From positions 1 to 64,000 of the forward strand of contig JAFZIY010000019.1 in assembly GCA_017554105.1 (NCBI GenBank): a stretch of 64,000 nt of DNA, read 5' to 3'. The DNA is from Prevotella sp. (GTDB lineage: Bacteria > Bacteroidota > Bacteroidia > Bacteroidales > Bacteroidaceae). Within the stretch, counting starts at the first letter, position 1; each line of letters begins with the position of its first letter. Made by a program: the position numbers and the translations under genes. Positions 9,446 to 48,742 of the stretch are shown one piece after another. A model generated the notes under the pieces. It was not told the origin of the DNA, did no database searches, and saw only the letters and a program-made list of their open reading frames with translations.

Positions 9446-9475
9446 TTGTGTATGTCGCAATTATTAGTAATTTTG
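9446..9475 (+). promoter_or_regulatory. Promoter of the hybrid two-component regulator
   Basis: TTG at 9446-9448, 19 bases, then TAATTTTG at 9468-9475. The ATG follows at 9503, giving a leader of about 22 bases. Confidence 0.65.
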
Positions 9476-9502
9476 CAACGTGAAATAAACTTTGCCATAA
9501 CT

Positions 9503-12500: not shown

Positions 12501-13495
12501 CTCGTTCGCTCGTAATGCTGCATGGCGGTAGTATCACAGCCCACAATATTGAGGGTGAGGGATGCTATTTCCTCATAACACTGCCGTTGAAGCAGGGTGG
12601 CATTATCCATGATGTCGATGCTGTCGAGAAAGGTCAGGAGGCAGCAGCCTCCAATATCGCAGACGATGTCATTACCGATGTTGACGAGGAAGGTGCTGTT
12701 GACGGTGCACAGTCGTCGCGTCGCAAGACGGTGCTTATCGTTGAAGACGACAGTGAGATAAGGCAGTATCTTGTCGGAGAGTTCTCTGGACAGTATGCCG
12801 TACAGGACTGCTCCAATGGTAGGGAAGGACTGGAATACGCCTTGAAACATGTGCCCGACCTCATCATTACCGACCTTATGATGCCTGTCATGGACGGTCT
12901 TACGATGTGTCAGAAACTAAAGCGCAACGTGAACACCAACCATGTGCCGGTGATTATTCTCACGGCAAAGACATCTGACGAGGACCGTCTTGAAGGACTT
13001 GGCGCGGGTGCCGATGCATATATCGTGAAGCCTTTCAACATCGAGATTCTGTCACGTGCCGCCATCAACCTGATACAAAGCCGTCAGGTGCTTCGCAACA
13101 AGTTCACGGGCAAGGAAACCCAGGACGAGCGTGTGGAGCAGGTGAAGCTGAAGACTCCCGACGAGCGTCTGCTTGAGCGTATCATGTTAACGATAAACTC
13201 TAATATCTCTAACCCCGACCTCAGTGTTGAGTTCATCTCACAGGAAGTGGGCATCAGTCGTGCTCATCTACACCGTAAGTTGAAGGAACTGACAAACCAG
13301 AGTCCGCGTGACTTCATACGTAACATACGTTTGAAGCAGGCAGCAAACCTCCTTGCAAGCGGTAACCAGAACGTAACGGAGGTGATGTATGCCGTTGGTA
13401 TGCAGAACGCGGCATCGTTCTCTACGATGTTCAAGAACTTCTATGGTGTTTCTCCGAAGGAATATACTAAGGAGCACGGTAAGAAAGAGGAATAA
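9503..13495 (+). CDS. Hybrid two-component system sensor/regulator (HTCS)
   Basis: One-protein sugar sensor and transcription factor of the polysaccharide-utilisation type, 1330 residues. In order: signal peptide (MRRFLLTLLLLVSVKMLCLA); a periplasmic double beta-propeller made of about 14 Reg_prop repeats (motifs such as GFVWIATQDGLNCYD and GRLWISTDNDGLY) to about residue 690; a Y_Y_Y domain (about 700-760); one membrane helix (about 763-786); HisKA with phospho-acceptor His in NISHDIRTPM (about 816); HATPase (N box NVLGNAFKYV, about 928; GTGIGLHL); a receiver domain (VLIVEDD about 1077, phosphorylated Asp in ITDLMMPVMDG about 1122); and an AraC-type HTH (about 1225-1330). In the family, oligosaccharide binding outside drives phosphorelay to the C-terminal DNA-binding domain. 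Likely targets are the glycosidase operon just downstream and perhaps the xus locus. ATG 9503 gives the signal peptide; the earlier TTG is in the promoter. Confidence 0.95.
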   Translation: MRRFLLTLLLLVSVKMLCLAQFGRLFTPDDLLSSSLVNDIIQDPKGFVWIATQDGLNCYDSHHMTVFHRGDSSGLQSNDINCVWFSKDGRIFVGTSEGLQYFNFNTSHFYDIPLLIKGIADSTAFVTSITDSREGDVLVSTSGRGAFRIKKGTTNVSRITPSCGEYLRNIFEDSHGRLWISTDNDGLYMISGNKKVQYLADEQHRGEVSRVVEDRMGNIYVSTLTDGLFMLSNTTGDFSAVDVTHGINVSSVKLSHDGTIYIGSDGNGMMIYDPMAKTIRTASFYSSEININRAKVHSIMEDASGNIWIAAFQKGVFLIPAETGGFNYIGHRSATFNCIGNYCVMSLKVGHDGVLWVGTDQDGLYSINQDGSCRAHYAAGQNGIPATVLSITEDENHNLWLGSYLEGVGMFNPASGTYRRISSFTGLAKNVFGVMADGKGKVWAVTMGGGVWVVDVATGETETFRADGNNPNALVSDYLLSMSFSRDGKKVYLCTCDGLACYDIAKKSFISEFGQKAVLLGLQVTNVRETADGTLWAGAGGGLYRIRNHGKDVKLFTTADGLPNNTIRSMEIDGDNFLWISTNRGLSHMDIAKETFVNYGMGNGLQGNEFSSSASCFYDGRFVFGGNNGITFFRNTDITRNKKKLSVQLVEMRTAEQKVVMGMKSGIYNIVDTAVIDANRFDLSHSNNSFTLRFSAMEFANSEQVVYEYRINKGDWVRLSNGMSEVTFSNLPSGTYRFAVRANYNDTYSDERQFTIVVHPAWYASIWAYLLYALLIAAAIWFIVQQRRRKEQERLRIQEHIHAEQLNEAKIQFFMNISHDIRTPMTLIMSPLQKLITTDKDPTRQKQYQLMERNGKRIQSLIDQLMDLRKIDKGMMQMNFKQTDVVAMLNDINSLFDYQAAERNISTTFNHKDKMLLADIDRVSFDKIVMNVLGNAFKYVPDGGWIKMDLEREGDTFTLKIANSGNGIEPDKLERIFDRFYQVDTAGSPFAGTGIGLHLTRSLVMLHGGSITAHNIEGEGCYFLITLPLKQGGIIHDVDAVEKGQEAAASNIADDVITDVDEEGAVDGAQSSRRKTVLIVEDDSEIRQYLVGEFSGQYAVQDCSNGREGLEYALKHVPDLIITDLMMPVMDGLTMCQKLKRNVNTNHVPVIILTAKTSDEDRLEGLGAGADAYIVKPFNIEILSRAAINLIQSRQVLRNKFTGKETQDERVEQVKLKTPDERLLERIMLTINSNISNPDLSVEFISQEVGISRAHLHRKLKELTNQSPRDFIRNIRLKQAANLLASGNQNVTEVMYAVGMQNAASFSTMFKNFYGVSPKEYTKEHGKKEE

Positions 13496-33232: not shown

Positions 33233-36200
33233 ATGAGTAATTCAAGACCTTTAAAAACTTTCTTGATGTCGCTGTTTTTGTTGTGTCTGTTCCCTCTGGG
33301 AATGGCAGCACAGGGCGTTGTACGCGGAACAGTGACTGATGAGGCTGGCGAACCAGTAATTGGTGCGACAGTCAAAGTACAGGGAAGCAATGAGGGAGCC
33401 ATTACCGATTTCGAAGGAAATTACAGCGTAAAGGCAGCCTCTAACGCTACTCTAAGTTTCTCCTATGTTGGTTATGTACCACAGGAGGTTAACGTAGGTG
33501 GAAGAAGCACCATCAATGTAACGATGGCTGAGGACAACACTACTCTGAACGACGTGGTTGTCATTGGTTACGGTACAATGAAGAAGAAACTGGTGACTGG
33601 TGCTACAGTTCAGGTTAAGGGTGAGGACATCGCCAAGCTGAACACCACCAATGCACTTGAGGCTATGCAGTCAAGCACCCCAGGTGTACAGATTACCCAA
33701 AGTTCTTCACAGCCAGGTAAGGGATACAATGTAGTTATCCGTGGTAAGGGTACTAATGGTGACACAGCTCCATTGTACGTTATCGACGGTGTTGTTGGAA
33801 GTCTCGACGGCATCAACCCCGCTGATATCGAGAGCATCGACGTTTTGAAGGATGCTGCTTCGGCTGCCATCTATGGTGCCCGTGCTGCAAACGGTGTTAT
33901 CCTCGTTACCACAAAGCAGGGTAAGGCTGGTAAGATCGAGCTCAGCTACAACGGCGCTATCGGTTGGTCTAACGTTTACAAGCGTCCACAGTTGCTCAAC
34001 GCTCAGCAGTACATGACTATCATGGACGAGTATTCTTTCAATACATCTGGCGCAAAGATGGACTGGGCAAACTCTGTTCCAGCAGATATTCTTGCCAAGG
34101 TTGCTGACGGTTGGCAGGGAACTGACTGGTGGGATGTATTTACGAACAAGAATGCTGTACAGCACAACCATTCTGTTACTTTGACCGGTGGTTCAGACCG
34201 TTCAAAGTTCATGGGTTCTTATACCTTTACTAGCAACGAAGGTATCATGGGTGCTGACATGGCTTCTTACTACAAGCGTCACACTGTTCGCTTCAACAGC
34301 GACCACGTACTCTTGAGAGTTAAGGACTTCGACGCTATCACCATCGGTGAGAACATCTCTATCGGTTATAACAAGAGCCACGACCTCGCTGAGGCTGGTA
34401 TGTACTGGAGTTATATCCACAGTCTGATGCAGGTCAATCCGCTTCTGCCACAGTATGATGACAATGGCAATGTTTACGATTACCAGAATGCTGATGGCGA
34501 AGTCACTCATGGTAAGGGGTGGCTTGGCGCTATGTTCAACAACCCATGGGAAAACCTTTCTAAGGGTGGTTTCAACTCTATGGCAGAGAGCCGCAACATC
34601 AATGCTGCTGCTACAGCATTCGTTGTTATCCAGCCGATTAAGGATTTGAAGTGGCGTACACAGTTCAACTACAACTGGGGTTCTGGTGCATATCGTAACT
34701 ATGAAGAACCACATAACGAAAACTCTCAGCCAACTCATGGTAGTTTTTATAGTATGAGCCAGAGCACTTGGTTTAATACCAACTGGTCTATTTTCAACAC
34801 TCTTACCTATGACCTCCCAATTTTCAATGGTCACAAGTTTACCGCCATGTTAGGTCAGAGTTTTGAGAGTACAGCATGGAGTACTAACCTCGGTGGAAGC
34901 AACAAGGTTGCTTATGGACAGCAGCTCGCTTCTTTAAGGGATTGGGATTCTGCATGGCTTTCGAACATCCTTCTTGAAAATGCAACTGACGCTACTCTGA
35001 CTGGTAGTCCAAACGATGAAGACTATCTCGCTTCTTGGTTCGGCCGTGTAAGCTGGGACTTCAATGAGACCTATATGGCAACCGTAACCGTACGTGCTGA
35101 TGGTTCAAGCCATTTCGCAGACGGTCATCGTTGGGGTTGGTTCCCATCAGTATCTGCTGGTTGGGTAATGACCAATGAGCCTTTCATGGAGAGCACAAAG
35201 AGTTGGATGGACTTCTTCAAACTCCGCGCATCTTGGGGACAGAACGGTAACTGTAATGTGGCTAAATACCAGTACATCTCTCCTATCATTTTGTCTAGCG
35301 TGGGCGGTTACAAGTTCGGTTCAGACTTGGCTACATCTGTTGCAGGTTCTCCAAACTCTGGAGCATACGCTAAGAATGTTCCTAACCCTGACCTTACATG
35401 GGAGACATCTGAGCAGCTCGACTTCGGTTTCGACGCTCGTTTCCTTAACAGCCGTCTGGGTGTAAACTTCGACTGGTATAGGAAGACTACAAAGGACTTG
35501 ATTATCCTTCGTGACCCTCAGTATGACTTAGGTAAGGAGTCTCCTTACTTCAATGGTGGTGACATCCGTAACACTGGTATTGAGCTCGCTGTTACATGGA
35601 ATGACAGAATTGGCAGTGACTTCAGATACAATGTGGGCGTGAACTTTGCTACTAATAAGAACAAGGTAATTCGCGTAAACAACTTGAACCACTATATTAA
35701 CGGTAATGGTGGTATCCTTTCACAGGGTACTGAATACATCTCACGTATGCAGGAAGGCTATCCTATCGGTTACTTCTACGGAATGTCTTACAGCGGTATC
35801 TGGCAGAATCAGGCACAGATCGACGCTGCACGTCAGGCAGGTAAGGCTGTTCTTGATGATGCACAGCCTGGTGACTGTATATGGGACGACTGGAATGGTG
35901 ACGGCCTTATTACTTACGCTGAGTCCTTTGACGCTGATGGCAATGACATTTGCGACCGCCATGAGATTGGTAATCCTAACCCAGACATTATGCTCGGTAT
36001 CAACCTCGGTTGCACATGGAAGGGCTTCGACTTTGCTATCAATGGTGCAGGTGCTTTCGGAATGCAGGTAATGCGTTCTTACCGTTCTTATAGTGATGCT
36101 CCTTATCAGAACTATGATACCTCTATCCTGAATCGTTGGTATGGTGAGGGCACCTCAAATGAAATGCCACGTATTTCAAGTACTGGTCATCCGAATACTA

Positions 36201-36475
36201 ACTGGAACTCTATACGTTATATGGAGGATGCTGACTACTTCAAGATCAAGACCGTTACTCTCGGTTACGACTTCAAGAATGTTTGGAAGAACTGTCCATT
36301 CCAGCAACTCCGTCTCTATGTTCAGGCTCAGAACCTCTGCACATTCACTGGTTACACTGGTCTCGATCCTGAGGTTGGTAACACTGGTGGTGACGTAACA
36401 TGGGCATCTGGTATTGACCTGGGTCTCTATCCACCATCTCGTACTTTCCTGATTGGTGCAAGTATCAAGTTCTAA
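33233..36475 (+). CDS. SusC-like TonB-dependent outer-membrane transporter
   Basis: Glycan importer of the outer membrane, 1080 residues. Signal peptide (to GMAAQG), carboxypeptidase-D-like domain (VVRGTVTDEAGEPVIGATVKV, about residues 28-115), the SusC box with TonB motif near LNDVVVIGYG (about 105-114), plug domain (VIRGKGTNGDTAPLYVIDGV to VILVTTKQGK) and a 22-strand barrel ending in SIKF. All parts are present, so it should be functional. It pairs with the SusD gene 29 bases downstream and the surface lipoprotein at 38432. Substrate is unknown; the leftward GH43/esterase operon next door suggests a hemicellulose or arabinan. Confidence 0.95.
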   Translation: MSNSRPLKTFLMSLFLLCLFPLGMAAQGVVRGTVTDEAGEPVIGATVKVQGSNEGAITDFEGNYSVKAASNATLSFSYVGYVPQEVNVGGRSTINVTMAEDNTTLNDVVVIGYGTMKKKLVTGATVQVKGEDIAKLNTTNALEAMQSSTPGVQITQSSSQPGKGYNVVIRGKGTNGDTAPLYVIDGVVGSLDGINPADIESIDVLKDAASAAIYGARAANGVILVTTKQGKAGKIELSYNGAIGWSNVYKRPQLLNAQQYMTIMDEYSFNTSGAKMDWANSVPADILAKVADGWQGTDWWDVFTNKNAVQHNHSVTLTGGSDRSKFMGSYTFTSNEGIMGADMASYYKRHTVRFNSDHVLLRVKDFDAITIGENISIGYNKSHDLAEAGMYWSYIHSLMQVNPLLPQYDDNGNVYDYQNADGEVTHGKGWLGAMFNNPWENLSKGGFNSMAESRNINAAATAFVVIQPIKDLKWRTQFNYNWGSGAYRNYEEPHNENSQPTHGSFYSMSQSTWFNTNWSIFNTLTYDLPIFNGHKFTAMLGQSFESTAWSTNLGGSNKVAYGQQLASLRDWDSAWLSNILLENATDATLTGSPNDEDYLASWFGRVSWDFNETYMATVTVRADGSSHFADGHRWGWFPSVSAGWVMTNEPFMESTKSWMDFFKLRASWGQNGNCNVAKYQYISPIILSSVGGYKFGSDLATSVAGSPNSGAYAKNVPNPDLTWETSEQLDFGFDARFLNSRLGVNFDWYRKTTKDLIILRDPQYDLGKESPYFNGGDIRNTGIELAVTWNDRIGSDFRYNVGVNFATNKNKVIRVNNLNHYINGNGGILSQGTEYISRMQEGYPIGYFYGMSYSGIWQNQAQIDAARQAGKAVLDDAQPGDCIWDDWNGDGLITYAESFDADGNDICDRHEIGNPNPDIMLGINLGCTWKGFDFAINGAGAFGMQVMRSYRSYSDAPYQNYDTSILNRWYGEGTSNEMPRISSTGHPNTNWNSIRYMEDADYFKIKTVTLGYDFKNVWKNCPFQQLRLYVQAQNLCTFTGYTGLDPEVGNTGGDVTWASGIDLGLYPPSRTFLIGASIKF

Positions 36476-36504: not shown

Positions 36505-38412
36505 ATGAAAAAATATATTTTGTCATCGTTGGCTGTTCTCGCGACAGCAACAATGTTCACATCATGCAACGACATGCTGGATACAGACCCTCGTAAGACT
36601 GAGGTTACCGATGCTGTCTTCCCAGGTAAGGTTGCAGATGTAGAATCTGAACTTTCAGCAACCTATGCTATCATGAATACCATGGGTGGCGGCGACTCTG
36701 ATAACCAGAATATCTTCTTCTGGTGGGAGGTTATGTCAGACGACTGCTACGGTAGTGGCGGTCTGCAGGACAACAAGGTAAAGTCTCTCCACCACCTTGT
36801 AGAGATGAGTGTTAATCAGTATGCAGAGCCTTACAAGCTTCTCTATGGCGGTATTGCTCGTGCCACTACTACTATTGAGACTATCAACAATGTGCCTTGG
36901 AAATCAGAGCAGCAGGCTCTGCGTAATCAGCTCCTTGGCGAGGCTTATTTCATGCGCGGTCTTTACTACCTCTGGCTTACCCAGTTGTTCGGTGACGTGC
37001 CTTTGATTACATCTTCTGTCATTACTCCAGAAATGGAAGAGGAGTCTGACGCTGCAACGCAAATCTTCCCACAGATTCTCTCTGATATGGTTTCTGGAAA
37101 GACTCTCATGGGTACCGACAGGGGACATGGTGACGGACACGCCAATAAGTATGTTGCTGAGGCTTTCATTGCCCGTGCGTATATGTTCTGGGCAGGTTTC
37201 TACCAGGGCGTTGGCGAACTCGCTACCGGTTCTGCTCCAGCCATTGACCTTGTTGAGCAGGAGGGATGTAACGTAGCATCTCTTTCTAAGGACGATGTTA
37301 TCTCAGGTCTTAAGGACATTTATAACAATGGTGGTTACAAACTTTGCGAGGACTTCCGTTCACTTTGGCAGTACTCTAATAGTTTACTTTGGTCTGAGGC
37401 GTGGGATGCTGAAGGTCATGCATACGAGTTCATCAAGGATATGAAGCGTGAGAACTGCTTCGACCAGCCAGGCATGGGTAACGGCAACACCGAGGAACTC
37501 TTCCAGATTCAGTTCATGAATGCATCTTCTTGGAATATCAGTGGTTCATACAACGCTCAGCGTATGTATTCTAACTACATTTCAGTATTCTGGGGTCTTC
37601 GTAATGGTTCAACCGCACAGAATGGTGACCGTAACTTCACTTATCCATTCAACCAGGGATGGGGTCAGGGTACTCCTTCATGCAATATCTGGGACGACTG
37701 GACAGCAGCAGAGAAAAGTGGTGGTGCAGGTAATGAATATACTGACCTCCGTAAGAAGGCTTCTTTGATTGACCTTGACGCAGAACTTGAATCCTATACC
37801 TATGAGAAGGACGACTGTGAGGAGTCTGGCTATTCTGTAAAGAAGTATGCTGAGGTTAACCTTGATGCAAACGATGCAAACAATAAGACTTGGTGGGGTA
37901 AGTGTGAAGGATACTCCAGCAGTTCACTTGGAAACGAAATGCAAGGTGACCACTTCGAGGACTTCTACCTGATGCGTTATTCTGACGTTCTCCTGATGCT
38001 CACTGAGCTCACTGGTGATGCTCAGTACATGAACATAGTTCAGCGTCGTGCTGGTGTTCCTGAGACTGCTTACTCTTTGAAGGCAGTTCAGGATGAGCGT
38101 CGTTGGGAGTTCGCATTCGAAGGACTTCGCTTCAACGATATGCGTCGTTGGACAGGTAAGGATTGCTCTAACAGCCAGTATGCTCCTAATGCTCTTCAGG
38201 CTCAGCGCGGCAAGCAGATTATTTGCTTGGGCGACAAGGCTAACAAGCGTACAATGGAACACATGACATGCTCTTGGACCAAGCGTTATACCGACACCAA
38301 CGGCTTCTTGGCTAAACCTCAGTCTGAGATTACTGTGAAGAATGGTAAACTCAAGCAGAACGCAGGTTGGGATGCTGCTAATCCTGAGACACAATATAAG
38401 ACACTTTATTAA
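36505..38412 (+). CDS. SusD-like surface glycan-binding lipoprotein
   Basis: Outer-membrane lipoprotein partner of the SusC at 33233, 635 residues. The lipobox is FTSC (MKKYILSSLAVLATATMFTSCND). SusD/RagB features are EAYFMRGLYYLWLTQLFGDVPL (TPR-like helix), LMRYSDVLLMLTEL and RRWEFAFEGLRFNDMRRW near the C-terminus. It forms the lid of the pedal-bin transporter. Acidic residues soon after the Cys (NDMLD) fit surface export. Confidence 0.94.
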   Translation: MKKYILSSLAVLATATMFTSCNDMLDTDPRKTEVTDAVFPGKVADVESELSATYAIMNTMGGGDSDNQNIFFWWEVMSDDCYGSGGLQDNKVKSLHHLVEMSVNQYAEPYKLLYGGIARATTTIETINNVPWKSEQQALRNQLLGEAYFMRGLYYLWLTQLFGDVPLITSSVITPEMEEESDAATQIFPQILSDMVSGKTLMGTDRGHGDGHANKYVAEAFIARAYMFWAGFYQGVGELATGSAPAIDLVEQEGCNVASLSKDDVISGLKDIYNNGGYKLCEDFRSLWQYSNSLLWSEAWDAEGHAYEFIKDMKRENCFDQPGMGNGNTEELFQIQFMNASSWNISGSYNAQRMYSNYISVFWGLRNGSTAQNGDRNFTYPFNQGWGQGTPSCNIWDDWTAAEKSGGAGNEYTDLRKKASLIDLDAELESYTYEKDDCEESGYSVKKYAEVNLDANDANNKTWWGKCEGYSSSSLGNEMQGDHFEDFYLMRYSDVLLMLTELTGDAQYMNIVQRRAGVPETAYSLKAVQDERRWEFAFEGLRFNDMRRWTGKDCSNSQYAPNALQAQRGKQIICLGDKANKRTMEHMTCSWTKRYTDTNGFLAKPQSEITVKNGKLKQNAGWDAANPETQYKTLY

Positions 38413-38431: not shown

Positions 38432-39214
38432 ATGAAAAAGATATTTTTGTTATTTGCCGCAGCATGTGCGCTTGTAGCTTGCGATCCTGTTCATGAGGAT
38501 ATAGGCAATGCTGGCCACATCACTCTTGACGAGCTCTTAGCGAAGACTTCTGTGACTGTTGATGTCGATCCTGCTACTGGCGTGAATGGAAATCAGATTT
38601 TCTGTTCAACCTCTGCCCCTGTCAATGCAAGGTGGGATATTGACGGCAAGTCTTTCGTAAACAATTATGCATGGAAGAAGATGAAGGTTAATAAGGATGA
38701 TAATGGTAATTATGAGGACACTCCATATACCGTTCTCCTGACCGCTCTTTGTGCAGATGGTACAGTGCTCACTCATGAGTTCCCTGTTACTTGTTCGACT
38801 ATCACTAATGCACTTGAGAAGATTTATATCTTCGGTAGTGCTGATAATGACTCACCTGCTGTCCTCGGTCCTGGTGACGCAGCTGCTGGACGTTTCAGCG
38901 ATGGTGAAGGTAAATTCTTCCCATACCTTTCTGATGATGTTTACTTTGGTAAGAAGACCCTTATCTTTGATATCATCGCAGCAGAGGAAGGTCCGTTCAT
39001 CTGGGGTTCAGACGTTGGTTGTACTTGCCGCGTAATGAACGGTTGGTGGAGCGCTACTTATGCAGACAACGTACCACTTTCTGTAGGTCTGTGGGAACTT
39101 CCTATCACCGATGCCATGGCTGCTGATTGTGCCAAGGGCGGCGACAGCAAAGACTTGGACATCTTGATGACCCGTGGCTCTATTACAGTTAAGTCTGTTT
39201 ACTATGAGGAGTAA
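38432..39214 (+). CDS. SusE/F-position surface lipoprotein, 260 aa
   Basis: Lipoprotein (MKKIFLLFAAACALVACDP, lipobox LVAC) in the place where PULs encode a surface glycan-binding protein. The N-terminal part (TSVTVDVDPATGVNGNQIFCSTSAPVNARWDIDG) looks like a PKD/Ig-type domain. The C-terminal part (IYIFGSADNDSP onward, with FIWGSDVGCTCRVMNGWWSA) looks like a sugar-binding beta-sandwich. No catalytic motif. Located 20 bases after SusD and before a strong terminator, so it closes the operon. Its glycan is unknown. Confidence 0.82.
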   Translation: MKKIFLLFAAACALVACDPVHEDIGNAGHITLDELLAKTSVTVDVDPATGVNGNQIFCSTSAPVNARWDIDGKSFVNNYAWKKMKVNKDDNGNYEDTPYTVLLTALCADGTVLTHEFPVTCSTITNALEKIYIFGSADNDSPAVLGPGDAAAGRFSDGEGKFFPYLSDDVYFGKKTLIFDIIAAEEGPFIWGSDVGCTCRVMNGWWSATYADNVPLSVGLWELPITDAMAADCAKGGDSKDLDILMTRGSITVKSVYYEE

Positions 39215-39241
39215 TCATTCCTTATCAGTATAATTAACATT

Positions 39242-39274
39242 AGGCTGACTCAATAAAATGAGTCAGCCTTTTTT
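39242..39274 (+). terminator. Terminator of the SusCD operon
   Basis: A perfect 11-bp stem, AGGCTGACTCA with TGAGTCAGCCT, loop ATAAAA, then a run of T. Confidence 0.9.
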
Positions 39275-39275
39275 G

Positions 39276-39309
39276 GCCTCCTCCTTCCTCCCCCTGGGGG
39301 GAGGGAGCT
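39276..39309. repeat. GC-rich palindromic repeat
   Basis: GGCCTCCTCCTTCCTCCCCC followed by TGGGGGGAGGGAG is another member of the CCCCTCC..GGAGGGG family, placed just after the terminator. Confidence 0.6.
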
Positions 39310-39411
39310 TGTCATTATCCAAATCGGATAATCTTTTATAGATAATTGCTTGGGTTTAGGAAAGGATAAGGGCTAATTTTCTTCGTCTCAGCAAAAAAAG
39401 AAGTATTTTCT

Positions 39412-39441
39412 TTGTTTTGCCCTCTACTTTTCGTAAATTTG
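39412..39441 (+). promoter_or_regulatory. Promoter of the triplicated membrane/CxxCH module
   Basis: TTG at 39412-39414, 19 bases, then TAAATTTG at 39434-39441; ATG at 39471. It is the only promoter with a good match ahead of the six-gene run to 48742. Confidence 0.68.
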
Positions 39442-39470: not shown

Positions 39471-41264
39471 ATGGAAAAGAACTATCTAAACAAAGTAACT
39501 AAGCCCATTCTCTATGTAAGCCTGCTGGCTTTCATTATATTTGCCTTATACATATTATATATTAATAAGGAGGTACTCTATACCGCACATGACCGTTCCG
39601 AGTTCATCTACGGAGCACCATTCTTCAATACCCTCATGTCGAAGCCTTTCGGCCTGATGCAGTACGTGGGAGCCTGGCTCACACAACTCTTCTATAATCC
39701 TGTATTAGGTGCTGGCGTGCTGGTGGCTATCTGGGTGATGATATTCTATGTGGGTGCTAAGGCATTCCGGTTAAAGGGAGGCGCCCTTGCGCTGATGCTC
39801 TTGCCTGTTGCCTGTCTGCTCACATCGGTTGTCGATTTGGGATATTGGGTTTATATCTCTTCAATCAGAGGTTATTGGTTCTCGCAGTCGGTAGGCTATC
39901 TTGTTATGCTGCTGCTGTTGTGGGCAGCACGAAGTACCCCACGCAAATGGCATCTCTTATGGTATGTATTGGGCTTTTGCCTCTATCCAATATTAGGATG
40001 GTTCGCCTTGCTCTTCGTGCTTTGTCTGGTGGTTGCCGAGAAACCAACATGGCGTGAACTTATAGGCATTGTCTTGCTTATCTTTACCGCCAGCATCTGG
40101 CACACTCAACTCTATTCGAATCTAAAATTCGATGATGTCATGCTGGCAGGGCTGCCTCGTTTCGAAACGCCAAGCGACAGTACAGGACGCCTTTCAATCC
40201 CGTTTTGGGTGCTTGGTGCATTATCTATACTCATTCCATTGCTTAGGCGTTTGGGGGATTGGTCGTTTGGTCGTTTGGTTGTGCCAGTGGTTTGTGTTGT
40301 TGCAGGTATTGTCTTTACTTGTTCGTTCATGTTCCGCGACCAGAACTACATTGACGAGATGCGCATGGTGCGCTATGCCGAGGACGATAACTGGAAGGAA
40401 ATCCTAAGTATGGTAGAGGAGAACAAGAAGCCAACCTGTACGATGGTATTTCTAAAGAACATTGCCTTGATGAACGAAGGCGGGTTGCTTGACCGCTCGT
40501 TTAAGAGTGGTAACATCAGTTTCCCAATCACTAACCCCGATGTTCTCCACGTCACCCTTTTGGAAATAGCCTCTCCATTGGTATATTACAACTACGGAAT
40601 GATGAATGAAGCCATCCGTTTGAGTTTCGAAAATGCAATACAAAGAGGCTTTTCACCCTTCTACTTGAAGATGCTCTCTCGCTGTGCCAAGGTTACAGGA
40701 GAGAATAAACAGTTGGAACGCTATACCACAATACTGAATCATCATCCGTTCTACCGAAACTGGCAGCCGGCACCAGTCTCGGCAAAGGTAAAGGAACTGC
40801 AAAAGTCATACCCCGATGAAGTCACTGGTGTTGAGAACAGCGATAGTTATCTTGTCAACAGCATGTGCTTTTGGTATGAAACTGACAGTAAAGTGGCTTC
40901 GGAACAGGCATTGTTCTACTCCATGATACGTTGTGACTCCCATTGCTTCTGGTCATCGCTGCGTAAATACTTGAAATTGCACGAGGGAGATTTATTCCCT
41001 GTGCATGCGCAGGAGGCTTATATCATATACATGGATAAGGCTCCAGAGGAGAAACGCATGATGATTCCCGTTGAAGAGACGGTTTACAAGCGCTACATAA
41101 AACTATTGGATGTTATGGCGAAACTGGTAAAGCCAGGAAAGACTCTTGGACAGGTTGCAGAAGAAATGCGCGGAGAATGGGGAGATACTTATTGGTTCTA
41201 CTACTTCTTTGGAAGACAATATTCTAATACAGTTGAAAGAAAAGAAAACGAAGTTCAATCGTAA
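39471..41264 (+). CDS. Polytopic membrane protein with soluble helical C-terminus, module copy 1
   Basis: Unknown function; it resembles the family annotated DUF6057 in Bacteroidota (from memory). About nine membrane segments fill residues 10-285, then a soluble region (from FRDQNYIDEMRMVRYAEDDNW) that looks like TPR-type helical repeats to residue 597. Paralogues at 42786 and 46012 share LP or PGG-type loops, Q-(L/F)-F near residue 70 and the R-Y/D-x6-W-(K/N/G)-x-IL motif that opens the soluble part. The gene carries the in-frame DNA repeat for DWSFGRLVV at 40255-40290. It is followed after 7 bases by the CxxCH lipoprotein gene, so the pair probably works together at the inner membrane/periplasm. 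Confidence 0.82.
   Translation: MEKNYLNKVTKPILYVSLLAFIIFALYILYINKEVLYTAHDRSEFIYGAPFFNTLMSKPFGLMQYVGAWLTQLFYNPVLGAGVLVAIWVMIFYVGAKAFRLKGGALALMLLPVACLLTSVVDLGYWVYISSIRGYWFSQSVGYLVMLLLLWAARSTPRKWHLLWYVLGFCLYPILGWFALLFVLCLVVAEKPTWRELIGIVLLIFTASIWHTQLYSNLKFDDVMLAGLPRFETPSDSTGRLSIPFWVLGALSILIPLLRRLGDWSFGRLVVPVVCVVAGIVFTCSFMFRDQNYIDEMRMVRYAEDDNWKEILSMVEENKKPTCTMVFLKNIALMNEGGLLDRSFKSGNISFPITNPDVLHVTLLEIASPLVYYNYGMMNEAIRLSFENAIQRGFSPFYLKMLSRCAKVTGENKQLERYTTILNHHPFYRNWQPAPVSAKVKELQKSYPDEVTGVENSDSYLVNSMCFWYETDSKVASEQALFYSMIRCDSHCFWSSLRKYLKLHEGDLFPVHAQEAYIIYMDKAPEEKRMMIPVEETVYKRYIKLLDVMAKLVKPGKTLGQVAEEMRGEWGDTYWFYYFFGRQYSNTVERKENEVQS
40248..40290 (+). repeat. TTGGTCGTTTGG repeat in coding sequence
   Basis: TTGGTCGTTTGGTCGTTTGG is read as WSFGRLV. 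The same DNA repeat, in the same frame, occurs twice in the paralogous gene at 43213-43256. Confidence 0.6.
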
Positions 41265-41271
41265 GAAAACA

Positions 41272-42759
41272 ATGAAAAGATATATATCCTCATACATCGT
41301 ATTGCTGGGCTTTGCCGTGATGTTCCTTTCATCGTGCGCAAATCATCCCTCTGTGCCCTCTGACGCCTCTGCGTCCTCTGTGCTACCACCTATTTTCCCC
41401 GATTATTGCGATGTTACGGTGCCATGTAATATTGCGCCGCTCAACTTCATTCTCCCTGCTGACCAGTACGAAGAGTGCGTGGCACGTATTACTACTCCTG
41501 ATGGTAAGCAGCAGACATATGGCAATGGTGTGAAGGTGCAGATACAAGAGGATGAATGGCGCGATATGCTCGATGCCTCGAAGGGCAAGAGCATAAAGGT
41601 AGAGGTATGGGGCCAGAAAGACGGTAAATGGCTGTCGTTCAACCCGTTTGTGATACATGTGGCAAAAGAGCCTATCGATGAATATGTGTCTTATCGCCTT
41701 ATCGAACCATCGTATGTGGCATGGGACTTCATGGAGATTGCCCAGCGTAACCTCACCACGTTCGAGGAGACACAGATATTCAATAACGAGATTACCTGTA
41801 ATGACAAGGAAAAAGGCCAGTGCATCAACTGCCACAGTTATCAGAACTACAAGACTGACAATATGCTCTTCCATGTGAGAAAGGCGAATGGAGGAACTGT
41901 CATTGTGAACGACGGTAAGGTTACGAAAGTAGACATGAAGCGTGACTATACCATTTCTGGAGGTGTCTATCCGGCATGGCATCCTACCGCCAAACTCGTA
42001 GCCTTCTCGACCAACCTGACACGACAGGGATTTCATACGGAAAATCATAACAAGATTGAGGTTTACGATCAGAAAAGCGACTTGATTCTATATGATGTGG
42101 TGACCGACTCGGTGAGCATCGTCAGCAACGATTCCACTCTCTTGGAGGTCTATCCTACATGGTCGCCCGATGGCAAATATCTCTATTACTGCAAGTCTGT
42201 TCCGCTTCCTGAAGAAATGCGTGACAAGGATATCGCATCTACATACTCGAAAATACAATACAACCTCTATCGCCGTTCGTTTGACGTGGCAACACATGGT
42301 TTCGGCGATGAGGAACTCGTATATGATGCAGCATCACAGGATAAGAGTGCCACATTGCCACGTATCAGTCCCGATGGCCACTATCTGCTGTTTGCTCTGG
42401 GGCAGTATGGGTGTTTCCATATCAGACACAGTGATGCCGACATTGTTTGTATGCCGCTCGATAATCAGGTCTCTTCAGACATTGACCTAACCGGTCTTAA
42501 CAGCGAAGGCTTTGCTGATAGTTACCCGACCTGGTCGAGCAACGGACATTGGATCATGACTTCCAGTCGTAGGGGTGATGGCAACTTCAGCCGTATCTAT
42601 TTTGCCTATTTCAACAACGGAAAAGTGGAAAAGGCCTTCCTCATGCCGCAGGAAGACCCTGAACATGACACCTACCGTCTGAAGTGTTATAACCGTCCTG
42701 AGTTCATGGTAGAGCCAGTCAAAATAAGCGTCGCAGAGTTCAGCCGTGTGTTCGACTGA
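41272..42759 (+). CDS. Lipoprotein with CxxCH heme motif and PD40/TolB-like propeller, copy 1
   Basis: Predicted lipoprotein (lipobox LSSC after FAVMF), 495 residues. After an N-terminal beta domain with the shared PPIFPDYCDVTVPCNIAPLNF block, it has a single c-type heme motif C-I-N-C-H (about residue 185), with a conserved His 12 residues later (H in FHVR) that could be the second axial ligand. The rest is a propeller of PD40/TolB-like blades, with repeats such as YPAWHPTAKLVAFSTN, YPTWSPDGKYLYYC, LPRISPDGHYLLFA and YPTWSSNGHWIMTSSRRGDGNF. The role is unknown; heme-dependent redox or binding at the cell envelope is inferred. The ATG at 41272 is used because earlier frames overlap the upstream gene. 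Paralogues are at 44492 and 47273. Confidence 0.85.
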   Translation: MKRYISSYIVLLGFAVMFLSSCANHPSVPSDASASSVLPPIFPDYCDVTVPCNIAPLNFILPADQYEECVARITTPDGKQQTYGNGVKVQIQEDEWRDMLDASKGKSIKVEVWGQKDGKWLSFNPFVIHVAKEPIDEYVSYRLIEPSYVAWDFMEIAQRNLTTFEETQIFNNEITCNDKEKGQCINCHSYQNYKTDNMLFHVRKANGGTVIVNDGKVTKVDMKRDYTISGGVYPAWHPTAKLVAFSTNLTRQGFHTENHNKIEVYDQKSDLILYDVVTDSVSIVSNDSTLLEVYPTWSPDGKYLYYCKSVPLPEEMRDKDIASTYSKIQYNLYRRSFDVATHGFGDEELVYDAASQDKSATLPRISPDGHYLLFALGQYGCFHIRHSDADIVCMPLDNQVSSDIDLTGLNSEGFADSYPTWSSNGHWIMTSSRRGDGNFSRIYFAYFNNGKVEKAFLMPQEDPEHDTYRLKCYNRPEFMVEPVKISVAEFSRVFD

Positions 42760-43060
42760 AAACTTGTCAACTCGTTAACTTGTAAATGAAACATATACAT
42801 TATATATATACTCTCCTTTTCGGTGTGGCGGTCCTTCTCTTTTTCGGGCTGGCCTATCCGCATCATCTGCATTATCAGGAGCAGTATCAGCTTTTCCTTT
42901 TCGATAACACATACGTGTGGGACATCGTCAGGCTGCCAGGTGGCGTTGCCGACCTGCTGGGACGCTTCTGTACACAGTTTTTCCTTTATGCCTGGGTGGG
43001 TGCCCTTATCATTGCGCTTCTGCTCTCTGCGGTGCAACTCCTGACACTCCGCCTCCTCAA

Positions 43061-43095
43061 CTATCAATTATCCATTATCCATTATCCATTATTAT
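43061..43095 (+). repeat. TTATCCA repeat in the membrane gene
   Basis: TATCAATTATCCATTATCC and further copies are read as NYQLSIIHYPLLY. Intergenic relatives are the TAATTGA repeats. Confidence 0.55.
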
Positions 43096-43375
43096 ATGCT
43101 CTGAGCTTTGTACCCTCGTTCCTGCTCTGGCTCTTCCTCCTCGACGAGAATGCGCTATTGGGTGGTGTATGGGCAGTCCTGCTCACACTTCTCGCCTCAT
43201 GGATAATGAGTTGGTCGTTTGGGAGATTGGACGTTTGGTCGTTTGGGGGTTGGGGTAAAGCGTTGCGCCTCATTATCCTCTTTGCCGCCATTCCTATACT
43301 CTATTGGATTGTGGGCCCCATCTGCGTACTATTCTTCCTCCTGCAGGTTCTTAATCCCATAAGTTTCGCATCCTC

Positions 43376-43395
43376 TCAAAGTTCAAAGTTCAATT
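43376..43395 (+). repeat. TTCAAAG repeat at the frameshift
   Basis: CAAAGTTCAAAGTTCAA marks the point where the reading frame of the copy-2 membrane protein changes. Similar TTGAACATTGAA repeats lie at 54990-55010 and 61917-61955. Confidence 0.6.
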
Positions 43396-44491
43396 GTAGC
43401 CTTCGTTCTTTTGGCTATAATGCTCTTTATACTGGCATCACATATCCCAGTGCAACCCCGCAGTCTGTGGTTCGGCATACACTACCATCGCTACCCGACA
43501 GTAATCCCAGTCCTGCTATGGTCTGCTGCCCTGTCAGTCTTCGTCCTTGCACTCATTGCCCGTTTCTTTAACAAACCAGCAACATCAAAGTCTCAAAACC
43601 TCAAAACCCTTCTGTTCTGTGCCCTCTGTTTCCTCTGTGGTCTATGTGCTGTATGGAAATACAGCAATCTCAAGGCAGAGAAGGTGATGCAATACGACTT
43701 CATGGCGCGCCATCAGCAATGGAACCGCATACTCGCCACCATCAACGCTGAAAAACCCAACAATCAGATTGGAGTGACGGTGCAGAATCTTGCCTTGGGT
43801 ATGCATGGTCTGCTCGCTGACCACCTGTTCGAATTTAACCAGAATGGCATCTTAGGTCTATTGCCCGATGTCCAGAGCGATGCTACCAGTCCTCTGCCTA
43901 CTGCCGAGGCCTTCTATCAGTTGGGTATGATAAATGTCGCCCAGCGAACGGTGTTCGAGTGCCAGGAGGCTATTCTTGACTTCCAGAAGAGTGGCCGATG
44001 CTACAAACGACTGGCACAGACCAATCTTATCAATGGCAAATATGAAGTGGCGCGCAAATATCTCACGGCGCTGCAGAAAACCCTCTTCTATCGTGATTGG
44101 GCAAACGAGACAATGGCATTGTTGGGAGACGAAAAGGCAATAGCTAAGCATCCGGAATATGGACGCCTGCGCCAGTTCGCCTACAAAGAGAACTTGGTTT
44201 TAGATAGAGACTCCTCACGCTCGGCTAATCCAAGTGAAATTGATGGCTCTCGCTTAACTGGAGAGTTTTACTTCAGTGATCATGTGACTCCCGAAATGCT
44301 CGAAAGCCTTTACTATGGCAACACGGACAATCGTCTGGCCTTTGAATATCTGAAGGCTTACTATATGCTGACGGGCGACCGCGAAGGCTATAATAAACTA
44401 TTACGGGAGTTAGAAGTTAGGAATTAGGAATTAATAGTTAAGAAATGTCGCCTTTGGCGAGTATGAATTATCATTTAAGAATTATCATATA

Positions 44492-46006
44492 GTGAAAAAG
44501 ATTCTATACGCACTATTCTCCCTTTTGATGCTCGTAGCCTGCGACGAAAATGTCAAGGATGCGAAGCAGGAGACGGCTCAGCCTGATATCTATCCCGACT
44601 ACATCGGGGTCACCATACCCGTGAACATCGCTCCTCTTAACTTTTGCATGGCAGATGAGACGGCATCGTGTATCGATGCAGTCATTACGGACCGTCACGG
44701 AAACACTCTGCACAGCCAGGGTGAGGAATCGTTGGATTTCGACATCGACGACTGGCAGACACTGCTCGGTCAGAATCGTGGAGATTCGGTCAGCGTTACC
44801 GTATCGGCGAAGTATGACGACGGTTGGCACACCTATCGTCCTTTCTCAATCTATGTCAGTCCTGACAGCATCGACTATGGCATCTGTTATCGTCTTATTG
44901 AGCCAGGCTATGAGGTGTGGAGCAAGATGGGCATCTATGAGCGTGACCTCTCCTCGTTTGACGAGCGTGCGCTGATCGAGAACACACAGTTTGAGGGTTG
45001 TGTCAACTGCCATAGTTTCAACCGCGGTAATCCTGCTGATATGAGCCTTCATATCCGTGGCCCGCATGGTGCCACATTGTTGCGTCAGAAAAACGGTCCT
45101 TTAACCGCCTACAACACCAAGACCGATAAGACGCTCGGTCTCTGTGTCTATCCCTATTGGCATCCTTCGGGCCGCTATATCGCCTATTCCACCAATACCA
45201 CGCGACAGTTGTTCCACAGTGCCCATCCCAACCGTATTGAGGTCTTCGATGAAGCCTCCGACCTTCAGGTCTACGACGTTGAGAAGAATGAGCTCCTGCT
45301 GTCGCCACTTCTCAAGCAAGACTCGATATTTGAAACCTATCCTGTCTTCTCGGCAGATGGGCGCTCGCTCTATTTCTGTGCAGCCCGTTCTCCCCTCTCC
45401 TTCGGGGAGGGGAAGGAGGTGGGGCTCCTTGATTCTATTCGATATAACCTCTGTCGCATTGATTTCGACCCCGAAACGGGTACCTTCGGCGACAGCATAG
45501 AAACAATTATCGATGCTGCGCATGCCTCCCTCTCCTCCGGGGAGGGAACGAGGGAGGGGCTTTCCATTTCCTTCCCCCGTCCTTCCTACGACGGCCGTTT
45601 CCTGTGCTATACACTCTCCGACTACGGACAGTTCAGCATCTGGCATCACGAGGCAGACCTCTATCTGCTCGACCTCTCCACAAGAGAGAGCCGCCCTATG
45701 ACGGAGGCAAACTCAGAGGATACGGAGTCGTTCCACAATTGGAGCACAAACTCGCGCTGGATGGTGTTTAGTTCGCGTCGTGACGATGGTCTCTTCACGC
45801 GGCCCTATTTCTGTCACGTCGATGCCAAGGGGAACGTCACCAAGGCGTTTATGCTGCCACAGCGCAATCCGCGCCGTTTCTATCGCGACCGTTTCCTTTC
45901 CTTCAATGTGCCTGACTTCATCATTGGTCCGACCCGTTTCGACGGTCATAAGGCCAGTGCTCTCATCAACGATGAATACCGCAAGGACATAGGCGTGCGC
46001 AAGTAA
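44492..46006 (+). CDS. CxxCH propeller lipoprotein, copy 2, with two repeat-derived peptides
   Basis: Paralogue of the 41272 protein, 504 residues, starting at GTG 44492. Lipobox LVAC (MLVACDENV), shared PDYIGVTIPVNIAPLNF block, heme motif C-V-N-C-H (about residue 169) with the conserved His 12 residues on (LHIR), then PD40-like blades (YPYWHPSGRYIAYSTN, YPVFSADGRSLYFC, SFPRPSYDGRFLCYT, WSTNSRWMVFSSRRDDGLF). Two GC-rich palindromic repeats lie inside the gene and are read in frame: SPLSFGEGKEVGL (45390-45427) and ASLSSGEGTREGL (45525-45560). At the second site the two paralogues have about ten residues fewer, so it is a genuine insertion. Confidence 0.85.
   Translation: MKKILYALFSLLMLVACDENVKDAKQETAQPDIYPDYIGVTIPVNIAPLNFCMADETASCIDAVITDRHGNTLHSQGEESLDFDIDDWQTLLGQNRGDSVSVTVSAKYDDGWHTYRPFSIYVSPDSIDYGICYRLIEPGYEVWSKMGIYERDLSSFDERALIENTQFEGCVNCHSFNRGNPADMSLHIRGPHGATLLRQKNGPLTAYNTKTDKTLGLCVYPYWHPSGRYIAYSTNTTRQLFHSAHPNRIEVFDEASDLQVYDVEKNELLLSPLLKQDSIFETYPVFSADGRSLYFCAARSPLSFGEGKEVGLLDSIRYNLCRIDFDPETGTFGDSIETIIDAAHASLSSGEGTREGLSISFPRPSYDGRFLCYTLSDYGQFSIWHHEADLYLLDLSTRESRPMTEANSEDTESFHNWSTNSRWMVFSSRRDDGLFTRPYFCHVDAKGNVTKAFMLPQRNPRRFYRDRFLSFNVPDFIIGPTRFDGHKASALINDEYRKDIGVRK
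45390..45427. repeat. GC-rich palindrome in coding sequence, site 1
   Basis: CCCCTCTCCTTCGGGGAGGGG is a near-perfect hairpin with an AAGGAGGTGGGGC tail, read as SPLSFGEGKEVGL between two propeller blades. Confidence 0.7.
45525..45560. repeat. GC-rich palindrome in coding sequence, site 2
   Basis: CCTCCCTCTCCTCCGGGGAG and its tail are read as ASLSSGEGTREGL; compare SPLSFGEGKEVGL 135 bases earlier. The shared peptide comes from the same DNA repeat in the same orientation and frame. Confidence 0.7.
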
Positions 46007-46011
46007 AGCTT

Positions 46012-47265
46012 ATGAGTATAAAAGCCTTTATATTCCGATTCTGGGAACATGTAGCGGTGGCTCTTTTGGCCATCGTGGTGTTCTGTTTCTGGCTATTCGG
46101 CTATCCTTTCATACCAGTGGCAAGGGAGATGTCGGTATTGTTCCTATGGAACTGTGACTATCTGACAGAGCGCCTTGTGCTGCCAGGCGGAATGGCTCAG
46201 TATCTGGGCGAATGCATTGCACAGTTTTTCCTGAATCCCGTCAATGGGGCTTTGGCCTATGCCATTCTTTTCGTTCTCGCCCAGAAGCTTTCTTCCAAAC
46301 TGCTTCGACAGTTCTTCCCAAATATCAAGGACAAGGTTCGTTTCCTGCTCTCACTCATTCCTCCCGTCATTCTGTGGTATGTGGCCATGGAACCCCTTAT
46401 ACCCCTGACTCCAACAATTGCGGCACTTATGGTGATGGCAGTAGCTTGTGCCGTCATGACCATCCAGTCCAAGCGGACACGGCTCATCGTTCTATGCCTG
46501 TTGATTCCCGTGATGTACTGGCTGACAGGTCCTATGGCAGTTCTTCTCACGCTCTGTTGTATTCGGTGGATACCCGTGACGGCCACCTTGTTTGCAGCCT
46601 GTCTGATAGGCAGTTCGTGGCTGACTCCCTATCCTCTGAGACAAATAGTCAGGGGCATCGACTACAAATGGAGTGATGTCAGGCAGATGGGAACTTACGA
46701 GGAAATGGAGTGTGACATGCTGATACGTCAGCAGCAGTGGGGAAAGATACTGAAGAAGTTCCCCAGTCCCGTATCTCCTGCCGTGAGGAATGCCTGCATA
46801 TTAGCCTTATATCAGACGGGTGGAATCAGTTATAATGAACTCATGTCCAGGATGGTCGTGCCAATAGAGATGTATGAGAGTTCACCCTCCGTGTTCTGTG
46901 CCGGCGATTCGTATGGTATTGTCTATTTTGGCAGTTTGTCATCTGCCTTTATCGTCAGCGAGATAGCCTACCGACTGTTATGGACCGGCATTTCACAGCG
47001 TACTGCCTTCGAAGCGATGGAGTATATCCCCAACTATAATAAGAGCGGCAGGGCACTTAAAATCTTGACGGAGATAAGTATCATTACAGGCCAATACGCC
47101 CTGGCGGAGAAATACCTCTCCATTCTGGATGAAACGACGTTCTATCGCCGATGGGTCAGGAAAATGCGTCCTATGCTTGCCAATCCCAAGTTGATTGAGC
47201 AAGACACATTCATGAAGAGGTCGCGTGACTCGTATCTGAAAACCAAAGACTATTTCTTTATCTGA
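46012..47265 (+). CDS. Polytopic membrane protein, module copy 3
   Basis: Third member of the membrane-protein family, 417 residues and intact. Membrane segments fill residues 12-210 (VAVALLAIVVFCFWLFGY, FLLSLIPPVILWYVA, LIVLCLLIPVMYWLTGPMAVLLTL). The LPGGMAQYLGECIAQFFLN block matches LPGGVADLLGRFCTQFFLY of copy 2. The soluble part opens with ECDMLIRQQQWGKILKKF and stays helical. It is shorter than copy 1 (597), lacking much of the C-terminal helical region. It starts 5 bases after the copy-2 lipoprotein and ends 7 bases before the copy-3 lipoprotein. No repeat insertions are seen, so it is the best reference for the family here. Confidence 0.83.
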   Translation: MSIKAFIFRFWEHVAVALLAIVVFCFWLFGYPFIPVAREMSVLFLWNCDYLTERLVLPGGMAQYLGECIAQFFLNPVNGALAYAILFVLAQKLSSKLLRQFFPNIKDKVRFLLSLIPPVILWYVAMEPLIPLTPTIAALMVMAVACAVMTIQSKRTRLIVLCLLIPVMYWLTGPMAVLLTLCCIRWIPVTATLFAACLIGSSWLTPYPLRQIVRGIDYKWSDVRQMGTYEEMECDMLIRQQQWGKILKKFPSPVSPAVRNACILALYQTGGISYNELMSRMVVPIEMYESSPSVFCAGDSYGIVYFGSLSSAFIVSEIAYRLLWTGISQRTAFEAMEYIPNYNKSGRALKILTEISIITGQYALAEKYLSILDETTFYRRWVRKMRPMLANPKLIEQDTFMKRSRDSYLKTKDYFFI

Positions 47266-47272
47266 ATCGACA

Positions 47273-48742
47273 ATGAGCAGTAGTAAACTCTTCACTCTAT
47301 ACCTCTCATTTCTCACTCTTCTGCTTGTGGGATGCCATTCCTTGCCAAATGATGTGACGGAGAAGGACCAGTTGCCTCAGATATGGCCCGACTATGTTGG
47401 TGTCACCATACCTGTGGGCATCGCCCCACTGAACTTCTCAATGGCTGACGATGTAGTAACGACCATCGATGTAGAGGTGAGGGGCTCCAAAGGTGGCTTG
47501 CTGCATGCTAATGGCGACTATGCCGACTTTGACATTGACGAGTGGCATCGCCTGTTAGAGGCCAACAAGGGCGGACAACTGACGCTGACTGTCTGTGCGG
47601 AGAAGAACGGACAGTGGACGCGCTATCGCAGTTTCCAGATGATGGTGAGCACTGAGCCGCTCGACGAATGGGGCATTACCTATCGTCGCATCCCGCCCAG
47701 TTATGAGATTTACAGTAAGATGGGACTCTACCAGCGCTGTCTCTCCACCTTTGACGAAACACCTTTGATAGAGAACACCCAGATTCCCGACCAATGTATC
47801 AACTGCCATACGCCCAACCGCACCAATCCTGACCAGTTTGTCTATCACGTGCGCGGCTCGCATGGCGCCACGGTCATCGGTAGAGATGGAAAGACGGAGA
47901 TACTCGTGGCCAGTAACGACTCCCTCGGAGGCTCTATGGTCTATCCGTATTGGCATCCCGATGGTCGCTACTGCGCCTTCTCCACGAACAAGACATCGCA
48001 GATGTTCCATGCGTCTGGTGCCAAGCGCATCGAGGTGTACGACAACTCGTCGGATGTCTTTGTATATGACACAGAGACGCATACAATACTGAAGGATACG
48101 CTTACAATGAAATTGTTGTGGGCAGAGAACACCCCGGCTTTCTCGCCCGACGGGCGATGGCTTTACTATACCACTGCCAAGCGGCAGTTCTATCCCACCG
48201 ACTATGACAAAGAGTGTTACAGTCTCTGTCGCGTTGCTTTCGATGCCCATACAGGACGTCTTGGCGAGCAGGTGGACACCCTCATCAATACGACCGTCAC
48301 AGGCAAGAGCGTCACGTGGCCTCGTCCCTCTTACGACGGACGCCACATCATGTACACCCAGACCGACTTTGGCTATTTCTCGGTATGGCATCCCGAAGCT
48401 GACCTGTGGCTACTCGACCTGAAGAATGGTGAGACGCGTCCTATGGACACCGTGAACAGCCCTCAGACCGAGAGCCTGCACAACTGGAGCACCGGCAGTC
48501 GCTGGTTCCTCTTTACCAGTCGCCGTGACGATGGCCTCTATACCCGTATCTACTTCTCCTGTCTGGATGAAAACGGTAAGGCCACCAAGCCTTTCCTATT
48601 GCCACAGCGCAACCCCAAGCAGTATTATCGCCGGTTGCTCTATTCGTATAACACTCCAGACTTTGCATCACGCCCCTTGGACCTCGATTCCCGTGATATG
48701 AGCAGGAGAATCGAGAGTGAGGAACGTGTAAGTACTAAATAA
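47273..48742 (+). CDS. CxxCH propeller lipoprotein, copy 3
   Basis: Third lipoprotein of the family, 489 residues. Lipobox LVGC (LLLVGCHSLP), PDYVGVTIPVGIAPLNF block, heme motif C-I-N-C-H (about residue 180) with His 12 residues later (YHVR), and PD40-like blades (YPYWHPDGRYCAFSTN, TPAFSPDGRWLYYT, TWPRPSYDGRHIMYT, WSTGSRWFLFTSRRDDGLY). It is closer to copy 2 than to copy 1 along most of its length. No repeat-derived insertions. It ends the six-gene run; a long perfect hairpin follows at 48761. Confidence 0.85.
   Translation: MSSSKLFTLYLSFLTLLLVGCHSLPNDVTEKDQLPQIWPDYVGVTIPVGIAPLNFSMADDVVTTIDVEVRGSKGGLLHANGDYADFDIDEWHRLLEANKGGQLTLTVCAEKNGQWTRYRSFQMMVSTEPLDEWGITYRRIPPSYEIYSKMGLYQRCLSTFDETPLIENTQIPDQCINCHTPNRTNPDQFVYHVRGSHGATVIGRDGKTEILVASNDSLGGSMVYPYWHPDGRYCAFSTNKTSQMFHASGAKRIEVYDNSSDVFVYDTETHTILKDTLTMKLLWAENTPAFSPDGRWLYYTTAKRQFYPTDYDKECYSLCRVAFDAHTGRLGEQVDTLINTTVTGKSVTWPRPSYDGRHIMYTQTDFGYFSVWHPEADLWLLDLKNGETRPMDTVNSPQTESLHNWSTGSRWFLFTSRRDDGLYTRIYFSCLDENGKATKPFLLPQRNPKQYYRRLLYSYNTPDFASRPLDLDSRDMSRRIESEERVSTK

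Follow-up and report, generated by a model that had tools for sequence, protein, structure and literature searches.

Tandem pairs of DUF6057 membrane proteins and c-heme-motif propeller lipoproteins in a Prevotella polysaccharide utilization locus

A 64,000-nucleotide stretch of a Prevotella sp. genome (assembly GCA_017554105.1, contig JAFZIY010000019.1, positions 1-64,000, hereafter the window) carries, at 39471-48742 on the + strand, three consecutive gene pairs, each consisting of a membrane protein of the family DUF6057 followed by a lipoprotein with PD40 repeats and a single c-heme attachment motif (CxxCH). Comparison with related genomes indicates that the pairing of the two families is old and tight, and that the three pairs represent three old paralog types with orthologs of each in other genomes. 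The array lies beside SusC and SusD genes, a setting shared by most of the related loci. An interpretation to which we give about an even chance is that each pair forms a cognate periplasmic complex, in which the c-heme propeller would be docked on its own DUF6057 and would act in hemicellulose use.

Organization of the array

The genes of the three pairs are as follows.

39471-41264, + strand: DUF6057 type A, 597 amino acids (PF19529, E 4e-67; model predicted local distance difference test score, pLDDT, 80.5)
41272-42759, + strand: c-heme-motif lipoprotein type A (PD40; CxxCH at 41821-41835; model, computed without the first Met, pLDDT 90.3)
42786-43571, + strand: DUF6057 type B, N-terminal part (PF19529 profile 3-190, E 2e-46)
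43411-44427, + strand: DUF6057 type B, C-terminal part in another frame (PF19529 profile 211-492, E 4e-83)
44492-46006, + strand: c-heme-motif lipoprotein type B (PD40; CxxCH at 44999-45013; two GC-rich palindromic stretches inside)
46012-47265, + strand: DUF6057 type C, 417 amino acids, C-terminally short (PF19529 profile 7-448 of 569, E 7e-70)
47273-48742, + strand: c-heme-motif lipoprotein type C (PD40; CxxCH at 47795-47809; nearest relatives L126, L123 and L159)

All DUF6057 copies in the window, including both parts of type B, exceeded the curated PF19529 cut-off of 29.8 bits, and all three lipoproteins exceeded the Pfam cut-off for PD40 and contain one CxxCH each, in agreement with an original prediction made from the DNA letters; no NCBIfam family matched the window lipoproteins over its cut-off. 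That prediction had further described six genes forming three pairs with internal gaps of 7-64 bases. The alternating pairs and the gaps were recovered (7, 64 and 7 bases inside pairs, and 26 and 5 bases from pair to pair), but there are seven open frames rather than six intact genes because the type B DUF6057 gene is split by a frameshift, which the first reading had left out along with the SusC/SusD plant-polysaccharide setting and a fourth pair. The two type B frames overlap, the N-terminal part aligns with the N-terminal part of intact orthologs, and seven hand-picked type B orthologs each form one single frame of 463-524 amino acids; one other locus, L142, likewise has two overlapping frames at the type B split. 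The frameshift may be either a real inactivation or a sequence error.

Several short repeats were seen in and near these genes. A 7-base repeat run was read by eye near 43070 within the frame-shifted DUF6057 copy, and matching runs with 8-base spacing (TTTGGTCG type) occur at 40243-40278 and 43211-43246, within the coding sequences of two DUF6057 copies. The GC-rich palindromic stretches of the lipoprotein B gene (45379-45426 and 45514-45561) are 75% alike, and a similar palindrome lies in the intergenic region at 39286-39306; a genome-wide repeat is not supported, the core pattern having only three exact matches in the genome.

Pairing, distribution and age of the two families

Public genomes were scanned and the best 80 of 568 relatives were kept, representing nearest relatives rather than a random draw; judged by record titles, many are Prevotella and Bacteroidales of the rumen and other ruminant guts, and horse faeces, Dysgonomonas, Tannerellaceae and Marinilabilia are also represented. 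Together, the window, L013 and these 80 loci provided 161 lipoprotein genes, 157 of which encode at least 440 amino acids, the four shorter ones being dropped. A DUF6057 gene immediately precedes 143/161 lipoprotein genes in the same orientation, and 6 of the 18 lipoproteins without an upstream DUF6057 sit at a locus edge. Evolutionary distances were strongly correlated between partners (r 0.953 over 143 pairs, compared with at most 0.339 when partners were shuffled within loci). The mirrored trees show that each pair was duplicated and retained as a whole, which does not by itself prove contact. A count of how often the two families co-occur had been proposed with the original prediction, and both the adjacency and the mirrored trees bear out the association; the rare adjacency that would have spoken against it was not observed.

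Across a phylum-level sample of 296 genomes, lipoprotein matches at E<=1e-20 were found in five, with full-length proteins in three, one of which is the genome of the window, and DUF6057 matches at E<=0.001 were found in 24, of which three exceeded the cut-off. The same three genomes hold both the over-cut-off DUF6057 and the full-length lipoprotein, adjacent in each. Within a sample of the GTDB family, the lipoprotein was present in 189/251 genomes and DUF6057 in 214/251. Parabacteroides records contain the same two families in the same order, annotated as 'DUF6057 family protein' and 'PD40 domain-containing protein', but function, heme motif, pairing and any link to polysaccharide utilization are absent from these annotations.

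Searching the window's own genome returned eight DUF6057 matches, four of them from the window (the split type B counting twice), one from a fourth copy and three from a lone copy, and four lipoprotein matches, every one adjoining a DUF6057 copy. The fourth complete pair lies 23 kb downstream on the window's contig (contig 17, 72030-75496, with its DUF6057 at 72030-73943) and is neighboured by a gene for a xylanase of glycoside hydrolase (GH) family GH10 and by two SASA esterase genes. The other three lipoproteins of the genome are 37-48% identical to lipoprotein B, and in a quick lipoprotein tree of 85 rows the window copies A, B and C belong to different clades, all three of them supported. 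Copy A clusters with lipoproteins from the first pair of other loci, copy B with those from the second pair, and copy C with L123 and L159; judged by path length, L126 also groups with type C. Long branches were flagged by the tree program, but these three clades are not affected. An origin as three recent tandem copies was rejected because each window type has its own orthologs, and the triplication thus appears old, diverged and maintained, as had been proposed.

The lone DUF6057-like gene (385 amino acids, L014:8011-9168, contig 19) has no accompanying lipoprotein and adjoins a gene read by eye as glycogen branching enzyme. Several relatives without a lipoprotein match have single weak DUF6057 matches.

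Heme signature and attachment genes

The CxxCH motif is kept in 156/157 full-length lipoproteins, the exception being L146, from which the CxxCH stretch is missing altogether. The position 13 residues after the motif histidine (residue 187 of lipoprotein B) is occupied by histidine in 142/157 and by tyrosine in 15/157, and by eye it is methionine in two distant homologs; all three residues are able to ligate heme. The window's genome has two matches each to the heme attachment proteins CcsA and ResB. In the family sample, CcsA was found in 175/189 lipoprotein-positive compared with 45/62 lipoprotein-negative genomes, and among genomes negative for the nitrite reductase NrfA, in 158/172 compared with 28/45 (Fisher p 5e-6), with counts and test uncorrected for kinship. 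Judging by the motif and the attachment genes, the lipoprotein looks suited to carrying a covalent c heme, and it may plausibly have a redox function.

The two CcsBA loci of the genome (L019:12176-13897 and L020:7237-9384) each adjoin cytochrome genes: one has a neighbour with two CxxCH motifs, read by eye, and the other has NrfA and an NrfH-like gene.

Predicted folds, cellular location and comparison with known systems

The lipoprotein model has a TolB-like fold over its N-domain and propeller, with TolB as the nearest solved fold, and comparison of the sequence with solved structures yielded weak matches, 2ojh being the best and TolB the next. The DUF6057 model contains a TPR-like helical tail and a membrane domain weakly resembling GT-C glycosyltransferases, its helices being read by us as nine membrane spans; the corresponding sequence search against solved structures returned nothing better than E 0.17. 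Two distant lipoprotein homologs of 719 and 735 amino acids (L192:7175-9382 and L193:7409-9568, with neighbours read by eye as unrelated genes) carry the N-domain, CxxCH, PD40 propeller and then TPR repeats in one chain, and their genomes gave no DUF6057 match. Because these homologs fuse TPR repeats behind a CxxCH propeller, contact between the lipoprotein and the DUF6057 tail is the simplest guess.

The original prediction had placed the system in the periplasm or at the surface, with a redox or binding role. Of these, redox is plausible only, and a surface lipoprotein is not favoured: acidic residues at positions +2 to +8 occur in 3-37% of 141 lipobox lipoproteins compared with up to 92% in 61 SusD proteins, so that the acidic export signature of SusD from the same loci is not seen.

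Membership of TolB was rejected by sequence, with scores of 21-34 bits against the TIGR02800 equivalog cut-off of 343.15. TolB of the Tol-Pal system is without heme, whereas the window protein is a lipoprotein with CxxCH and a DUF6057 partner; the lipoproteins match no characterised non-redox family by sequence, yet their nearest solved fold is heme-free. Hydrazine synthase alpha (5c2v_A) has its active heme in a middle domain behind the propeller, according to passages of PMC12758564, whereas the CxxCH of the window lipoprotein is at the propeller start. The HZS_alpha middle domain, PF18582, was not among the matches listed (25 of 26 families; 39 members, E<=1). Neither DUF6057 nor a module of this kind was found described in text searches of the literature, consistent with the initial view that no system of this architecture was known, and a keyword search of two papers (PMC11107044 and PMC11784079) gave no relevant passage.

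Expression unit and polysaccharide locus

The features upstream of the pairs, and the sensor gene of the window, are as follows.

9446-13495: hybrid two-component sensor
33233-36475, + strand: SusC-type TonB receptor (TonB_dep_Rec/Plug over Pfam cut-offs)
36505-38412, + strand: SusD (SusD_RagB over Pfam cut-off)
38432-39214, + strand: small lipoprotein-like gene between SusD and the pairs (neighbour cluster 0)
39240-39275, + strand: terminator-like hairpin and T run at the boundary between the SusC/SusD unit and the pair operon (folded 70-base stretch, -19.4 kcal/mol)
39411-39441, + strand: Bacteroidetes-type promoter TTTG-N-TAnnTTTG (TTTG...TAAATTTG)

The promoter match, which had been placed near 39412 beforehand, fits the consensus for Bacteroidetes promoters, TTTG-N-TAnnTTTG. 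Among the 143 paired DUF6057 genes, minus six with too little upstream sequence, the full motif was found upstream of 12/89 first-of-run genes, compared with 0.5 expected from shuffles, and upstream of 0/48 inner genes. Judged by these motifs, the window pairs have their own promoter behind a terminator-like hairpin.

SusC or SusD is present in 64/80 loci, and SusD lies at most 6 kb upstream of a same-strand DUF6057 in 53/80, as called with profiles built from the window's own SusC and SusD in loci some of which are short; these are raw frequencies among the nearest relatives. The commonest arrangement is SusC, SusD, small lipoprotein gene and then pairs, in plant-polysaccharide loci of Bacteroidales. 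The small lipoprotein-like gene of the window had no Pfam match over cut-off, and its cluster is represented by one gene each in 37/82 sequences. The window holds three SusD genes, a GH43 with a carbohydrate-binding module of family CBM6, GH97, two GH31, GH3, a second GH43 and a BD-FAE-family esterase, and with SusC and SusD by Pfam together with hydrolases and an esterase it qualifies as a polysaccharide utilization locus (PUL). Neighbour-cluster representatives in other loci include GH5, GH3, GH26, GH130, GH97, a SASA esterase and housekeeping genes. One Parabacteroides record has two pairs followed by a glycosyl hydrolase, a glycosidase, an MFS transporter, an AGE epimerase and a sialate O-acetylesterase, an arrangement read as a mannan-type operon, and a second has SusC, SusD, a 6-bladed propeller and an ATP-binding protein upstream of the pair.

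A RidA/chorismatase-like gene occurs near the pairs in some lineages (cluster 3, 10 loci; L161:2939-4078, L195:10873-12063 and L196:6344-7588); it is absent from most loci and was left aside from the model.

Importers, binding proteins, hydrolases, esterases and sensors are the known parts of PULs, and the surroundings of the pairs resemble this scheme in their SusC, SusD, small lipoprotein gene, hybrid sensor, glycoside hydrolases and esterases. We know of no PUL scheme that includes a tandem c-heme module, and none was found in the text searches.

Proposed function and alternative explanations

In the proposed complex, DUF6057 would reside in the inner membrane with its TPR-like helical tail on the periplasmic side, and the lipoprotein would be a TolB-like six-bladed propeller, with one covalent c heme attached by the CcsBA system, that binds to the TPR tail of its cognate DUF6057. 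In the window, three diverged complexes of this kind, encoded next to SusC/SusD and driven by a promoter of their own, would work on hemicellulose material as it enters the periplasm, with the heme rendering the step redox-active or redox-controlled; the chemistry may be a redox reaction, regulation by redox state, or a GT-C-type transfer involving a heme subunit. A wider generalization, which we hold only tentatively, is that, when Bacteroidales use hemicellulose anaerobically, one periplasmic step depends on heme and is carried out by such matched complexes of a GT-C-like membrane enzyme with a TPR tail and a c-heme propeller lipoprotein, diversified by locus and substrate.

Several observations weigh against the proposed complex. 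The AlphaFold model places the CxxCH in a strand of the first blade, and a propeller-blade strand is an unusual position for a c-heme motif. Hydropathy gives eight membrane spans in 21/33 DUF6057 proteins, which with an N-inside start would place the tail in the cytoplasm. The DUF6057 alignment has no histidine column conserved at >=80%, so that the protein is not an obvious b-heme electron conduit, and a quinol-oxidising b-heme membrane partner was dropped on this ground. Mirrored trees are also expected from two genes always inherited together. No CcsA match was found in 14/189 lipoprotein-positive genomes, ResB being present in 4 of those 14; 12 of the 14 are <90% complete, and G333, at 99% completeness, is without a match to either CcsA or ResB. 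The CcsA association itself is subject to kinship, and the SusC/SusD frequency comes from nearest relatives rather than from random windows. Neither SusC nor SusD was found in 16/80 loci (10 to 21 kb long), and none was seen in two of the three Parabacteroides stretches in an incomplete gene table, one of these two having a lone pair beside pfkA.

A possible, if doubtful, alternative is that DUF6057 is, or descends from, a GT-C-type glycosyltransferase, with an active acid in external loop 1, a TPR tail binding the acceptor, a propeller presenting or recognising glycan, and a heme with a regulatory or structural part. A metal-binding or structural CxxCH, in which case the lipoprotein would be a TolB-like scaffold or glycan-binding propeller without a redox role, is unlikely given the near-complete conservation of the motif, the histidine or tyrosine at one downstream position (methionine, by eye, in two distant homologs) and the presence of heme attachment genes. 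Somewhat more unlikely still is that DUF6057 serves as a chaperone or assembly factor devoted to its partner, the apocytochrome lipoprotein, with the finished cytochrome acting alone, as modelled on CcmI/CycH, a TPR protein that serves apocytochromes in system I. Such a role would be consistent with the strict one-to-one pairing, the co-divergence and the predicted TPR-like tail, but the distant relatives with TPR fused behind the propeller come from genomes in which DUF6057 had no match, the large membrane domain and conserved outer loop exceed the needs of a chaperone, and a lone DUF6057 without lipoprotein exists. Highly improbable is a role of the cytochromes in handing electrons to phenolic groups such as ferulate freed from xylan, as an electron sink; the BD-FAE-family esterase in the window fits this idea, but pairs also occur beside GH26 and GH130 genes, in the mannan-type operon and beside pfkA, and the 20 named neighbour representatives include no reductase (one is an aldehyde dehydrogenase).

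PULs are among the best studied gut gene systems, and the proposed complexes, if real, would constitute a previously undescribed class of PUL machinery. Two families that are annotated simply as DUF6057 and PD40 would thereby gain a specific role open to testing. With a heme-signature module in 189/251 genomes of the family, a step of fibre breakdown, or its control, would then depend on redox state or iron supply.

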